From the NCBI RefSeq assembly GCF_001937195.1, contig NZ_MSDO01000019.1, positions 62,001 to 126,000 of the forward strand: a stretch of DNA of 64,000 nucleotides. Direction: 5' to 3'. The notes beneath the pieces are model-generated. The model was not told the DNA's origin. It worked only from the letters and a program-made list of their open reading frames with translations, and made no database searches. The stretch comes from Salinicola socius. GTDB taxonomy: Bacteria > Pseudomonadota > Gammaproteobacteria > Pseudomonadales > Halomonadaceae. How positions within the stretch are numbered: position 1 is the first letter of the stretch; each line of letters starts with the position of its first letter. Positions 28,945 to 39,964 of this stretch are shown here, one piece after another. The position numbers were made by a program, and so were the translations under genes.

Positions 28945-31692
28945 TCAACTCAGCGTGCCGTGGCACTGCTTGTATTTCTTGCCGGAACCGCACGGGCACG
29001 GGTCGTTACGACCGACCTTGGGGCCCTCGCGGCGCACCGGCTGGGCGTTGGCGTCGTCGGTTTCGACCTCGGACTCGGGCCCCGCGCCCTCAGCGGTCTG
29101 CTGGGCGGCGGCGACCGCGTCCTCATGTACCGATTGGCTGGAAGCCTTCTCGCGCTCCAGTGCTTCACGGCGCTGACGCTCCAGATCCTCGACCTCTTCC
29201 TGACGACGAACCTGAACGTGGCTGAGAATACGCGTCACGTCGTGCTTGATGTTGTAGAGCAGCGACTGGAACAGCTCGAAGGCCTCGCGCTTGTACTCCT
29301 GCTTCGGATTCTTCTGCGCATAGCCACGCAGATGAATGCCGCGACGCAGATGATCCATCGACTGCAAGTGCTCCTTCCAGCGAGTATCGAGCACCTGCAA
29401 CATCACCTGTTTCTCGAAGCGCCGCATCATGTCGGCGCCGATCGCCTCGACCTTGGCGACGTACTGGCCGCGATGCTGGTCCAGCAGACGCTGACGCAGC
29501 ACTTCCTCGTTGAAGTTGTCATCCTCTTCCGCCCACTGCACCAGCGGCAGGTCGAGATTGAATTCCTGCTTTATCTGATCCTGGAGCCCGGCCAGTTCCC
29601 ACTGTTCCGGCAGGCTCTGCGGCGGCACGTAGTCGGAGACCGTCTGCTCGAGCACTTCGTCGCGGATGCTGGCGATGTTGTCGGAGATCTCGTCGGCGGC
29701 GAGGATATCGTCGCGCTGTTCGTAGATGACCCGACGCTGGTCGTTGGAGACGTCGTCGTACTCCAGCAGCTGCTTACGAATATCGAAGTTGCGCCCCTCG
29801 ACCTTCTTCTGCGCCCGCTCGACCGCATTGGAGACCATCTTGTGCTCGATGGCCTCGCCTTCTTCCAGCCCCAGCGCGCCCATCAGGCGTTGCACGCGAT
29901 CCGACCCGAACAGACGCATCAGGCTGTCTTCCAGCGACAGGAAGAAGCGTGTCGAGCCGGGATCGCCCTGACGACCGGCACGGCCGCGCAGCTGGTTGTC
30001 GATTCGTCGGGATTCGTGGCGCTCGGAGCCGATCACGTGCAGGCCGCCGGACTCGAGAACCGCCGCATGGCGCTGCTGCCAGTCGGCCTTGATTGCCGCG
30101 ATCTGCTCTTCGCTCGGATTGTCGAGCTTGGCGACCTCGGCTTCCCAGTTGCCGCCCAGCACGATATCGGTACCACGACCGGCCATGTTGGTCGCCAGCG
30201 TGATCGCGCCCGGACGGCCAGCCTGAGCGATGATCTCGGCCTCGCTGTCGTGCTGCTTGGCGTTGAGCACGTTGTGGGGAATGTTCTTTGCCTGCATCAG
30301 CTTGGAGAGATACTCCGACGTCTCGATCGAGGCGGTACCCACCAGCACCGGACGATTGGCCTCGCGCTGGGTATTGACGTCCTCGATGATCGCGGCGTAC
30401 TTCTCTTCGGCGCTCAGGTAGACCAGGTCATTCAGATCCTGCCGAGCCAACGGCCGGTTGGTGGGAATGACCAGCACGTCGAGACCGTAGATGTGATTGA
30501 ACTCGAAGGCTTCGGTATCGGCGGTACCGGTCATCCCCGCCAGCTTGTCGTAGAGGCGGAAGTAGTTCTGGAAGGTGGTGGAGGCCAGCGTCTGGCTCTC
30601 GCGCTGGATCGGCACCCCTTCCTTCGCCTCGACTGCCTGATGCAGGCCTTCCGACCAGCGCCGCCCCGGCATGGTACGGCCGGTGTGCTCATCGACGATG
30701 ACGACGTTGCCGTCGGCGACGATATAGTCGACGTCGCGGTGGTAGAGACAGCGTGCGCGAAGCGCCGAGTGGATGTGCTGCAGCAGCCCCAGATTCTGTA
30801 CCGCGTAGAGCGAATCTTCGGCTTTCAGCAGACCCGCTTCCCGCATCAGTGTCTCGACCTGCTGGTGACCTTCTTCGGTCAGCTCGACCTGCTTCTGCTT
30901 CTCGTCGATCAGGAAATCGCCGGTGGTCGGGTCTTCCTCGTCGGTGCACTGCTTGAGCTGCTTGGAGAGCGTATGGATCGTGCGATAGAGCTCGACGTTT
31001 TCTTCGACCGGACCGGAGATGATCAGCGGCGTACGCGCTTCGTCGATCAGGATCGAGTCGACCTCATCGATGATCGCGTAGTGCAACGGTCGCTGGACCT
31101 TGTCCTGCAACGAGAACGCCATGTTGTCGCGCAGGTAATCGAAACCGTACTCGTTGTTGGTGCCGTAGGTGATATCGCAGGCATAGGCCTGACGCTTCTC
31201 TTCGTTGGGCTGCCCCGAAGCGATGACACCGACACTCAGGCCAAGAAATTCGTACAACGGGCGCATCCAGTTGGCGTCACGGCTGGCCAGGTAGTCATTG
31301 ACCGTGACCACGTGCACACCCTTGCCGGGTAGCGCATTGAAGTAGACCGCCAGGGTACCGACTAGGGTTTTACCCTCGCCGGTCTTCATCTCCGCGATAC
31401 GCCCATCGTGAAGCGCCATGCCCCCCACCATCTGGACGTCGAAATGGCGCATGCCCAGAACCCGCTTGCTCGCCTCGCGAACCGTGGCGAATGCCTCCGG
31501 CAGCAGTGCATCGAGCTTCTCGCCATCGGCGAGCCGCTGACGGAACTCGGTCGTCTTGGCCTGGAGTGACGCGTCATCGAGCGCCTCGAACTGGGCTTCC
31601 AGGTCGTTGATCGCCACCACCTGCTTGCGCATGCGCTTGACGTCGCGGTCGTTCTTGGAACCGACCAATTTATGTAGCAATCCGTTCAACAT
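28945..31692 (-). CDS. secA: Preprotein translocase ATPase SecA
   Basis: 915-residue motor of the Sec export pathway. It shows Walker [10 protein letters not shown] near residue 105, the [16 protein letters not shown] helicase box, the preprotein cross-linking and helical scaffold domains, and a C-terminal zinc motif [14 protein letters not shown] that binds SecB and phospholipid. The Shine-Dalgarno AGGA lies 8 nt before the ATG at 31692 (bases 31701-31704) and can be masked by pairing with the end of the upstream 114-codon gene. See the entry for that gene. Confidence 0.99.
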
Positions 31693-31701
31693 GATCTATT
31701 T

Positions 31702-31800
31702 CCTGCCTGACTCGGTTTCCTGCATAACTCTGAGAAGGCGATGCCATGACAGCTGCATCGACCCGCGATGATATGAATCGTATGACGATGATCAGGCGGG
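31702..31800 (-). promoter_or_regulatory. Candidate SD-masking helix controlling secA translation
   Basis: On the minus-strand RNA, CCCGCCUGA (31800-31792; the last two sense codons and stop of the upstream leader gene) can pair with UCAGGCAGG (31710-31702), giving eight pairs and one C-A mismatch. The second arm contains AGG of the secA Shine-Dalgarno. The 81-nt loop holds smaller hairpins (GATGC/GCATC and CATCG/CGATG). A ribosome paused with the Pro110 codon in the P site would cover the first arm and free the secA site. This is a reading of the sequence, not a folding calculation. Confidence 0.5.
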
Positions 31801-32136
31801 TACAGGCGGGCCACGCCGAGAGATGACGTCCAGCGCAGCGCTGGCGATCACGACGGGTTCGGAATATCCGGGTAGCGGCGCAAGAGAAGCTGTGGCCTGA
31901 GGATGCGTGGGACGCTTGGCGGCAACGCGAGCGACGCGTCGAGACTCGGCACGAATGGCCTCCGGGGCCATCAGATAAACCTGGGTCAGACGCTCTGCCA
32001 GCCGCATGGCTTCCGCGTGCATCAAACCCGCGGGCAACAGACAGCCGACCAGCACACTCGCCAGCCACCAATGGGCTCGCTGCCGGGGGCGCCATACGGA
32101 ACCACGCTGACCGGACTGCGCTTTGGCCGAACTCAT
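31792..32136 (-). CDS. Putative SecM-like export-sensing translation-arrest peptide upstream of secA
   Basis: 114 residues, ending 99 nt before secA on the same strand. Residues 1-43 form an export signal: a basic stretch (WRPRQR), a hydrophobic core (WWLASVLVGCLLPAG) and a possible signal peptidase site after MHA. The body is Ala/Arg-rich with no domain that I recognise. The C-terminus is ISRRGPPVPA: Arg108-Gly-Pro-Pro111 stands three residues from the stop. E. coli SecM has RAGP four residues from its end, and other known arrest peptides use RAPP. The distance from signal to motif (about 65 residues) would let the signal engage SecYEG while the ribosome pauses. The ribosome site (GGAG, 12 nt before the ATG) is modest. 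Position matches an uncharacterised gene between secA and dciA in Pseudomonas. The gene is likely real; the arrest function is inference. Confidence 0.7.
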   Translation of the reverse strand: MSSAKAQSGQRGSVWRPRQRAHWWLASVLVGCLLPAGLMHAEAMRLAERLTQVYLMAPEAIRAESRRVARVAAKRPTHPQATASLAPLPGYSEPVVIASAALDVISRRGPPVPA

Positions 32137-32198
32137 GCTGTCGACGAACTCCGCGTCGTGATAGGTTTAGCGGGTCTATCCCCACCGCGTGCAAGCCG

Positions 32199-32684
32199 AT
32201 GAGTATAAAGGCTAAGCGTTTGCGAGCCCAGCCCGTTTCCCGACTCCTGACCCAACCGGGGGGGTTGGGCGACGTGATGCGCATGGCAACGCTGATCGAA
32301 CGTGCCCAGAGCCACTTGAGACATCAGCTGCCGCCGGATGTGGCCGAGCATATCTACGTCGGCGGCTACCATGACGGCGTTTTGACGCTGATCACCGATC
32401 GCGCAGCCTGGCTGACCTGGCTGCGCTACGAGCAGCCGCGCTTGCTCAAGCTGCTGCATCAACTGCCGGGGTTCGAGGCGGTGATGAAATTCTCGCTGAA
32501 GGTGCGCCCGATCCGGCCGGTCAAGGCGATCCCGAGACAGACGCGGCGGCTGTCTCAAGCCGGGGCCGAAGCGCTGTCCGATTGCGCGGAAGGTCTGGAA
32601 GAGTCACCGCTCAAGCGGTCATTGAATCGGTTGGCATCCCACGCCCATGCGCCGCCGGAAACCGGCAGCGACTCGAGCTCGTGA
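32199..32684 (+). CDS. dciA: DUF721 / DciA family replicative helicase operator
   Basis: 161 residues of the DUF721 family. DciA helps load the DnaB helicase at the origin in bacteria that lack DnaC. The N-terminal 100 residues form the KH-like domain (ERAQSHLRHQLPPDVAEHIYVGGYHDGVLTLITD), followed by a basic, flexible tail. It is divergent from the secA leader gene, with 62 bp between starts. The same neighbour relation to secA and lpxC exists in Pseudomonas. Confidence 0.88.
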   Translation: MSIKAKRLRAQPVSRLLTQPGGLGDVMRMATLIERAQSHLRHQLPPDVAEHIYVGGYHDGVLTLITDRAAWLTWLRYEQPRLLKLLHQLPGFEAVMKFSLKVRPIRPVKAIPRQTRRLSQAGAEALSDCAEGLEESPLKRSLNRLASHAHAPPETGSDSSS

Positions 32685-37434: not shown

Positions 37435-38889
37435 TCAAAGGAGCACCTCGTCGAGCTTCAGCGCGGCGTGAGCGAGCCCTTGCGCGATGCCGCCGATATC
37501 ACCGGCACCCTGCGTGATCAGGATGTCGCCCGGTCGTAGCACTCGCGCGAGAATATCCGGCAACGCCGATTTCTTCTCGATGAACAGCGGATCGACCTGG
37601 CCTCGTTGGCGAATGGACCCTGCCAGCATCTTGCCCTCTGCTCCCGGAATCGGGACTTCGCCGGCACTGTAGACGTCCAGCAGCAATAGCGTGTCGACAC
37701 CGGAGAGAACCCTGACGAAATCCTCGTACAGATCCCGGGTACGGGTATAGCGATGAGGCTGATAGATCATCACCAGACGACGCTCCGGCCAGCCGGCACG
37801 CACCGCCCGAATGACCATTTCCACCTCGCGCGGATGATGGCCATAGTCGTCCACCAGCATCACCTCGCCCCCTTCGGGAAGCGGGTAATGCCCATGCACC
37901 TGGAAGCGTCGACCGACGCCCCCGAACGACGCAAGCCCCTTGACGATGTCGTCGTCGCCGACGCCGGCATCGGTCGCCACGGCGATCGCAGCCAGCGCGT
38001 TCAATGCATTGTGGGTGCCCGGCATGGCCAGCGTGATCTTCAACGAGGCGAAGCCGTCAGGGCGTTCGGCGACGAATCGAATGGTGTCGGCCGTCTGGTG
38101 GAAATCCCGCACTCGATAATCGGCGTCTTCGCTGAAGCCGTAAGTCACGAATTGGCGCTGAACCTGGGGCAGCAATTCACGCACATTGTCATCGTCGAGA
38201 CACAGCACGGCACGCCCATAGAACGGCAGGTTGTGCAGAAATTCGATGAAGGTCGTCTTCAGCCGCGAGAAATCGCCGTCATAGGTCGCCATGTGATCGG
38301 CGTCGATATTGGTGACGATGGCCGTCATCGGCTGAAGATGCAGAAAGGAAGCGTCCGATTCATCGGCCTCTGCGACCAGAAAGTCGCCGGATCCCAGTCG
38401 CGCGTTGGTGCCCGCGCTGGTCAGCTTGCCGCCGATCACGAAAGTGGGATCGAGCCCCGCTTCGGCGAACAACGTCGAAAGCAGGCTCGTGGTGGTGGTC
38501 TTGCCATGCGTGCCGGCAACCGCGATACCGTGACGAAACCGCATCAGCTCGGCCAGCATCTCGGCGCGACGCACGACCGGAATACGATGCTCGCGGGCCC
38601 ACTGGATCTCCGGATTGGTCGGATCGACCGCGGTCGACACCACGATGACGTCGGCGCCCTCGGCATTGACCGCCGCGTGTCCGATGGCCACTCGGATCCC
38701 GCACTCTCGCAGGTGGTGGGTGACCGCCGACTCGCGCAGGTCACTGCCGCTGACCGCGTAGCCTTCGTTGACCAGGACTTCGGCGATACCGCACATGCCG
38801 GCGCCACCGATCCCCACGAAATGAATGCCACGAATGCGCCGCATGCCGAGATGCGAGCGCGCCGGGCGTGTCTGAATGCTATCGCTCAA
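37435..38889 (-). CDS. murC: UDP-N-acetylmuramate--L-alanine ligase
   Basis: Adds L-alanine to UDP-MurNAc. 484 residues from the start I favour. Motifs: [11 protein letters not shown] (nucleotide fold), [12 protein letters not shown] (ATP loop), and [15 protein letters not shown] at 38889 has GGAG exactly 7 nt upstream and gives the N-terminus (M)[19 protein letters not shown]. The ATG at 38844 (MRRIRGIHF) is possible but lacks a ribosome site. With TTG it overlaps the end of murG by 11 nt, as expected in this tightly packed cluster. Confidence 0.96.
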
Positions 38890-39964
38890 AACCAATCTCC
38901 ATGCAGCCGTCGACCAGGCGTTCGACGGCATCGAGGTGGGCTACCCGGCGTGCCTGGACGGCCATCCGCGCCAGCACGTCGGGCTGTAAAAGTGACTCGA
39001 GCGCCGCCTGCAAACGCTCGGGGGTGAGCTCGGATTGCTGTATCAGCTCCGCGCCACCGGCATCGACCAGATGGCTCGCATTGTGGGTCTGATGATCATC
39101 GACCGCGTGCGGAAATGGCACCAGCAACGACGGCTTGGCTGCCGCCGTCAGTTCGGCAATGGTCAGCGCGCCGGCGCGACAGACGATGATATCCGCCCAG
39201 TCATAGGCCTCGGCCATCTCGTCGATGAAGGCGCTGACCTCCGCCTCGACACCCGCAGAACGGTAGGCTTCAAGGGTGACCTCGTCCTTGTCCCGCCCGG
39301 CCTGATGCCGCACTTGCGGACGTGCTGCCGGCTCCAGCGACGCCAGCGCCACCGGCAATTTCTGGTTGAGCGACTGCGCGCCCAGCGAGCCGCCCAGCAC
39401 CAGCAACCGCAGGGCGCGACCACTCATCTGCGCCGCGGTCCTGGGCCGCTCGCCCAACGCGGCGATATCCTCGCGCACCGGATTCCCCACCACCTCGGCC
39501 CTGTCGCCGGGAAAGGCCCCGGGAAACGCCGCATAGACGCGCGTGGCCAGACGGGCGAGCGAGCGGTTGGTCAATCCGGCGACGGCGTTCTGCTCGTGCA
39601 CGACCAACGGCTTGCCGCTCAAGCGTGCGGCCAGACCGCCGGGGCCGCTGGCGAATCCCCCCAGACCGACGACCAACTGGGGGTCGAAACGACGAATCAC
39701 CTGGCGCGACTGCCAGACGGCGCGCGTCAAACGCCACGGAATCGCCAGCCATCCAGCCAGGCCATTGCCGCGCAAGCCAGCGATCTCGATCCGATTGAGC
39801 GGGATGCCGGCGGCGGGAACGAGACGATTCTCGATTCCCCGCGGGCTGCCCAGCCACTCGATAGCCACGCCGCGATCGCTCAGGGCCTTGGCAAGCGACA
39901 GCGCCGGGACCACGTGCCCTCCCGTCCCGCCAGCCATGATCAGTACCCGTTTCAGTTCGCTCAT
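38879..39964 (-). CDS. murG: Lipid II-forming GlcNAc transferase MurG
   Basis: 361-residue peripheral membrane glycosyltransferase converting lipid I to lipid II. The glycine-rich loops [13 protein letters not shown] and [12 protein letters not shown] and the UDP-binding [11 protein letters not shown] are present. The start overlaps the ftsW stop (ATGA). Confidence 0.98.

Follow-up and report, generated by a model that had tools for sequence, protein, structure and literature searches.

We propose that the 114-codon open reading frame (uORF) directly upstream of secA in Salinicola socius encodes an arrest peptide that monitors export and belongs to the RAPP-like (RQH) class. It is likely, in our judgement, that its stall persists when export is slow, frees the secA Shine–Dalgarno (SD) sequence and raises SecA. 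That this very protein stalls, is released by export and controls secA is what we infer. The class is already known; what is added here is a near-fixed geometry of the peptide and a candidate coupling, at the RNA level, between its arrest codons and the secA SD. The features concerned are collected in Table 1.

Table 1. Features of the uORF–secA locus. Positions are those of the window, that is, the whole stretch of 64,000 nucleotides that was analysed.
Feature	Positions	Strand	Basis or remark
114-aa uORF with RGPP, putative arrest peptide	31792..32136	minus	ATG start; stop codon included; ORF listing
Signal core, residues 23-38, WWLASVLVGCLLPAGL	32023..32070	minus	L-x-x-C-L-x-P in 85/85 sequences
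Conserved arrest region, residues 100-111, AALDVISRRGPP	31804..31839	minus	Alignment of relatives
V-P-A-stop codons behind the stall site, GUACCCGCCUGA	31792..31803	minus	ORF read; pairing comparison with L002 and L003
Spacer between uORF and secA, 99 nt	31693..31791	minus	Sequence and ORF listing
secA Shine–Dalgarno region, CAGGCAGGA, candidate partner of the arrest-codon window	31701..31709	minus	Pairing comparison
secA, presumed regulated gene	28945..31692	minus	Pfam SecA domains
dciA (DUF721), divergent, 5′ neighbour of the uORF	32199..32684	plus	PF05258

The earlier note on this DNA had described a short gene ending just before secA on the same strand, with a clear export signal, no enzymatic domain and an Arg-Gly-Pro-Pro motif three residues from the stop, and this description is borne out. 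The C-terminus reads ISRRGPPVPA in translation, that is, Arg108-Gly-Pro-Pro111 followed by V-P-A-stop. By inspection, the N-terminus reads as a signal, with basic residues, a hydrophobic core and what may be an A-x-A cleavage site. Searches with the protein gave nothing in Pfam at E ≤ 1 and no family in NCBIfam that passes its cut-off; 42 aligned relatives have no NCBIfam family either, and one weak Pfam match in 1 of the 42 is taken for chance. In its own genome the protein has a single match. One ORF in the neighbourhood of secA we take to be lpxC, which would give the order lpxC, dciA, uORF, secA. An Rfam search over 31500–32400 gave nothing at E ≤ 1. Transcription attenuation was considered and dropped, because no terminator-like site was seen in the gap between the uORF and secA, and the one site within the uORF compares with 0.5 expected from shuffles.

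Four R[AG]PP words occur in the 274 open frames of at least 100 codons in the window. The only other one near a C-terminus stands five residues before the end of a plus-strand frame that starts at 37690. It is probably a chance occurrence, the frame being largely antisense to a minus-strand ORF (37435–38931) that is presumably murC.

Fujiwara et al. (2024; PMC10987492) analysed more than 30,000 genomes, and the text sections of their paper describe a set of uORFs, named uA_RQH_Pseudomonadales, that precede secA in some Pseudomonadales. According to the same sections, the representative of this group, with the motif R109GPP, stalls both E. coli and B. subtilis ribosomes in vitro (fAP >0.9), and the toeprints of RQH members place the third motif residue in the P-site. 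By analogy with these class toeprints (PMC10987492), Pro110 of the uORF protein would be expected in the P-site and Pro111 in the A-site. RGPP and RAPP are described elsewhere as the readiest arrest seeds and as strongly excluded from proteomes (PMC12992588), and a structural basis for RAPP arrest has been reported (PMC10951233). The reading of RGPP as an arrest motif therefore belongs to an experimentally tested class, and the claim that the sensor is new gives way to the group published in 2024.

The RQH class takes in uORFs of fewer than 300 aa with no assigned function, adjoining secA in the same orientation, that have an N-terminal localization signal, a spacer of more than 30 residues, and a RAPP-like C-terminal motif found in more than two uORFs of an order. 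The gene described here has this size, position and orientation and a hydrophobic core behind basic residues; 77 to 84 residues separate the signal Cys from the expected P-site Pro, the signal ending some residues past the Cys, and the motif is present at 91/91 and 80/80 loci. As far as can be judged by sequence, the gene thus falls within the published class. Since the only carriers found in the order belong to a single family (f1), uA_RQH_Pseudomonadales is most likely the same orthologous family as this gene, an identity that we infer, as the text sections of PMC10987492 name no tested species. The likeness extends to the short, signal-bearing uORF just upstream of secA, to RGPP near the C-terminus and to Pseudomonadales in the GTDB sense. 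The Arg is residue 109 in the tested construct and 108 here, and it is 109 in several relatives of the present gene. The text sections of PMC10987492 contain no limit to Halomonadaceae, no invariant signal core, no near-fixed spacer and no SD complementarity for this group. A literature search on the group name gave that paper as the sole match, and no paper on the gene was among the matches listed for Halomonas or Halomonadaceae with SecM, secA, arrest or stalling.

A whole-protein search that covered 151 family genomes hit 136 of them at E ≤ 0.01. Among these 136, 91 carrier loci were read and 44 genomes were left unread; the match in one more (G054; E = 0.0033, with an internal stop) was judged spurious, its secA locus having been read and found without the gene. 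The gene is absent at the secA locus of 16 family genomes from four genera (0/16). In 33 other families of the order, 63 loci were scanned and at none of them does an R[AG]PP uORF precede secA; two of these loci (L107 and L144) have little upstream sequence. A 57-aa RSPP frame at L103 has no signal and was discounted. The earlier note puts an uncharacterised gene in the same place in Pseudomonas, and this is not supported by the Pseudomonas-like family f21, where such a uORF occurs in 0/7 loci. One f21 locus was examined closely: in L116, which encodes a DciA with 81% identity to a Pseudomonas protein, the divergent dciA is the only ORF of at least 80 aa that could be assigned to this place, and a spacer of about 300 nt lies before secA.

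Among the named relatives, Salinicola salarius (88%) comes closest, along with others of its genus. NCBI taxonomy places Salinicola in the Halomonadaceae, order Oceanospirillales, and GTDB puts it in a broad Pseudomonadales; the order searched here also contains a Pseudomonas-like genome, in line with that breadth. The 80 named carriers, which are the best 80 of 184, belong to genera that we take to be Halomonadaceae, bar one unresolved Gammaproteobacteria bacterium. The carriers are one orthologous family, and within the sampled order only Halomonadaceae carry the gene. Taken as a whole, the earlier reading stands in the layout, the lack of SecM similarity, the conservation and the arrest-class motif, and falls in its novelty and its Pseudomonas equivalent; its functional interpretation, in which the gene would regulate secA, is probably right.

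In the ORF directly before secA, R[AG]PP is present at all 91 carrier loci (89 by script, two by eye) and at all 80 named loci. The former were obtained by whole-protein search (30 from the family search, 60 fetched afterwards and one from the order search), and the latter, which overlap the former, are the best, by whole-protein match, among 184 hits of a peptide pattern located in the signal. Second fetches for a genome already covered (L091–L093, L095, L096 and L098) were not counted, and a chance match (L177) was left out. The two loci read by eye, L059 and L079, are those that the ORF rule of the script had not passed, and the removal of four duplicates in the last 60 residues left 85 unique sequences. 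Because these 85 were selected by R[AG]PP, the invariance of the motif within them is partly by construction, and the 91 and the 80 loci are the fairer tests of conservation. At L059 (G071, 1497 bases), the arrest-peptide frame has no stop and continues in frame into secA, and at L079 a tail of about 50 residues overlaps the secA start.

The core in the 85 sequences is A-A-[LH]-D-V-L-[ST]-R-R-G-P-P. At its D-V-L positions, ahead of the motif, D occurs in 76, V in 67 and L in 61. The second motif residue is G in 81 and A in 4. The four RAPP sequences (L051, L052, L080 and L082) have an odd lead-in that ends P-R-A-P-P. The codon for Pro111 (31804–31806 in the window), which would lie in the A-site of the stall, is CCG in 14 of the 85 sequences, compared with 51% of background Pro codons, and CCU and CCA are enriched. 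Either the choice of tRNA at the A-site or RNA pairing might explain why CCG is scarce.

The check across relatives suggested by the earlier note shows that the signal and the C-terminal arrest region are conserved and that the middle varies. Majority identity among the 42 is 0.88 in the signal core, 0.99 in RGPP, 0.31 in the middle and 0.26 in the tail. The middle consists of 22% Arg and 4% acidic residues, and its identity averages 34% when one representative of each of 20 genera is compared. Cys32 (32041–32043 in the window) is invariant in the 85 sequences, mostly in an L-V-G-C setting that is lipobox-like, yet with hydrophobic residues behind it. Its codons are divided about equally between TGT (43) and TGC (42), so the constraint acts on the protein.

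Between the Cys of the signal and the Pro expected in the P-site, the distance varies little across the 85 sequences (sd 1.9) and is 77 to 82 residues in another 36. The tail that follows the motif, on the other side of the stall site, is 1 to 13 residues long (sd 3.4), and 15 to 207 nt separate the stop from secA. According to the text sections of PMC10987492, secA and secDF monitors have relatively long spacers, mostly of widely varying length, and MifM has a narrow distribution with a median of 54. Compared with the widely varying spacers of that paper, the near-fixed one found here is not explained by a simple secretion model.

In many genera, the complementarity of the arrest window to the secA SD exceeds what the protein requires. 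The D-V-L codons (GAUGUCCUG) pair with CAGGACAUC around the secA SD in L049 and L056, L031, from Modicisalibacter, has 20 pairs with one bulge between arrest codons and SD, and the P-A-stop codons (CCUGCCUGA) pair with UCAGGCAGG in the Salinicola sequences L002, from S. salarius, and L003. The SD is harder to open with the native covered region than with a shuffled one in 63 of the 85 sequences (mean z 1.8), and harder than the mean of controls with synonymous codons, in which the protein is fixed, in 61. For a window that runs from −30 to +18 nt relative to the P-site, fixed after the pairing positions had been seen, the cost of opening the SD exceeds that of the synonymous versions by a mean of +1.91 kcal/mol, with 35 of the 85 above +2. 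The same test on windows shifted upstream by 48, 96, 144 and 192 nt gives +0.22, +0.04, +0.07 and −0.15 kcal/mol, with 7, 5, 5 and 2 of the 85 above +2, respectively. Averaged by genus, the effect is positive for 14 of the 20 genera at the arrest window, and for 9, 7, 11 and 8 at the shifted ones. In the comparison with synonymous codons that gave 61 of the 85, 5 of 20 genera (g7, g10, g15, g16 and g17) have no positive mean effect. The related species behind these pairing statistics do not count as independent, and for halophiles a model that folds RNA at 37 °C and standard salt is crude.

The excess is found again in a held-out set, made up of the 36 of the 80 named loci that differ from the first set in the last 60 residues and run with a pooled codon background and 15 controls, versus 12 before. 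Here the arrest window gives +1.94 kcal/mol (17/36 above +2) and the shifted windows +0.06, −0.26 and −0.04 kcal/mol (1, 0 and 0 above +2). When SD regions are swapped between genera, the mean pairing energy weakens from −15.0 to −13.5 kcal/mol, and 41 of 2000 permutations are as good as the native arrangement. Ten of the 20 genera pair better than both mismatch means, 5 are mixed, and 5 (g5, g7, g10, g13 and g15) pair worse than both. The D-V-L codons were rejected as a purely RNA-driven signal, given that g10 mostly keeps D-V-L without SD complementarity. In L013, a Salinicola relative, the secA start region is quite different and the SD lies in strong local structure; the secA start codon chosen by the script may be wrong in this case.

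For the window's own species, SD sequestration is predicted to be weak or absent. The z value in the shuffled-region test is −0.43, the opening cost is 4.5 versus 4.0 kcal/mol for synonymous controls, and between the SD region and the covered region the pairing averages 0.06. The CCUGCCUGA of the sister species L002 and L003 can pair with the SD region of secA, and the window has one mismatch in it. The weak signal is probably due to this change, the P-A-stop codons reading CCCGCCUGA instead of CCUGCCUGA, and to the loss of a second helix near the secA start that is seen in L002. When the same test is applied to E. coli secM as a yardstick, it gives 4.4 versus 2.9 kcal/mol, with 11 of 100 synonymous controls as high, and 5.6 versus 3.7 kcal/mol in a longer window, with 16 of 100 as high; given this weak signal, the test is insensitive for single cases. 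Two other RNA candidates in the window were set aside: the single-sequence fold, which does not surpass dinucleotide shuffles in stability (z 0.70 and 0.77), and a hairpin over the stop codon (ACCCGC...GCGGGU), which by eye is not kept as a conserved element in sister sequences. In these folding models, the SD coupling reads as real for part of the family and as unproven for the species of the window.

The sequence of events that we favour is as follows. The signal would engage the Sec machinery as the ribosome comes to a halt, Pro110 then lying in the P-site and Pro111 in the A-site. Active export would pull on the chain and release the stall. With slow export the stall would persist, and the ribosome would cover the arrest codons and the stop region; as the covered nucleotides are complementary to the secA SD in many relatives, the stall would free the SD and more SecA would be made. 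A bolder extension, which we regard as rather unlikely, holds that about 48 nt carry two codes, one for the arrest peptide and one for an anti-Shine–Dalgarno strand that keeps secA off. Its register would shift under the stalled ribosome, using D-V-L in Modicisalibacter and some others and P-A-stop in part of Salinicola. In the same extension, the geometry of 77 to 84 residues behind the invariant, lipobox-like Cys signal would let the peptide read one membrane-engagement step and not bulk export.

This arrangement resembles known systems in part. SecM of E. coli also has a signal, a spacer, an arrest motif four residues from the end and a place upstream of secA; its motif is RAGP, versus RGPP here. 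In the text sections of PMC10987492, the ribosome stalled on SecM opens a helix that hides the secA SD. ApdA and ApdP share the R-A/G-P-P arrest with the third residue in the P-site and differ in lying upstream of secDF, in Actinobacteria and Alphaproteobacteria according to the published text, whereas the downstream gene here is secA.

Arrest might well occur while secA is controlled by another route, through protection of the mRNA by the stalled ribosome, relief of transcription–translation uncoupling or a secA promoter of its own, with the SD pairing incidental. We regard this as possible, though doubtful. It would fit the absence of predicted sequestration in the window itself and in several genera, the wide range of the stop-to-secA distance and the one relative that reads in frame into secA. 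Against it stands the excess of complementarity, which is limited to the arrest window and was seen again in the held-out set. It is improbable, in our view, that the signal and the arrest report membrane insertion or lipoprotein-type processing instead of SecA-driven secretion. A lipobox is described by the pattern [LVI][ASTVI][GAS]C, which the L-V-G-C core resembles; the Cys is present in 85/85 sequences and 78/85 fit. However, a hydrophobic stretch, LLPAGL, follows the Cys, unlike in most lipoproteins, and the gene downstream is secA. The narrow spacer recalls that of MifM, described in the published text as a monitor of YidC insertion; MifM has another arrest sequence, and the spacer here exceeds its median, although the two are measured from not quite the same point.

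Common descent with E. coli secM, with the present gene as a highly diverged true SecM, is very improbable. The neighbourhoods are similar (lpxC, secM, secA in E. coli), and SecM RAGP and RAPP peptides adopt one conformation near the PTC, according to published text sections. Against this, PF06558 matches in 0 of 19 genomes, the window's own included, with a positive E. coli control, which rules out membership in the SecM family; the SecM arrest sequence FxxxxWIxxxxGIRAGP is absent, the arrest region being mostly AAxDV[LI][ST]RRGPP across relatives, and no motif-bearing, signal-bearing intermediate appears in the 63 loci of other families. The earlier note was accordingly right to see a SecM-like layout without SecM similarity. 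That RGPP is fortuitous and the product an ordinary small periplasmic protein is scarcely credible, given a C-terminal motif kept at all carrier loci read, the position before secA, the variable middle and the arrest reported for the group in the text of PMC10987492. We therefore retain the export-monitoring arrest peptide as the preferred reading.

The comparison links a published class of ribosome-stalling export sensors to a single orthologous family of the halophilic Halomonadaceae, with a deep set of relatives behind it. If the overlapping RNA code is true, the family would provide a clean system for asking how selection on the protein and selection on the RNA are accommodated in one set of codons, and how the logic by which SecM regulates can be built anew from unrelated sequence. 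Halomonas and related bacteria have uses in biotechnology, and a native secretion sensor in them could serve as a practical reporter.
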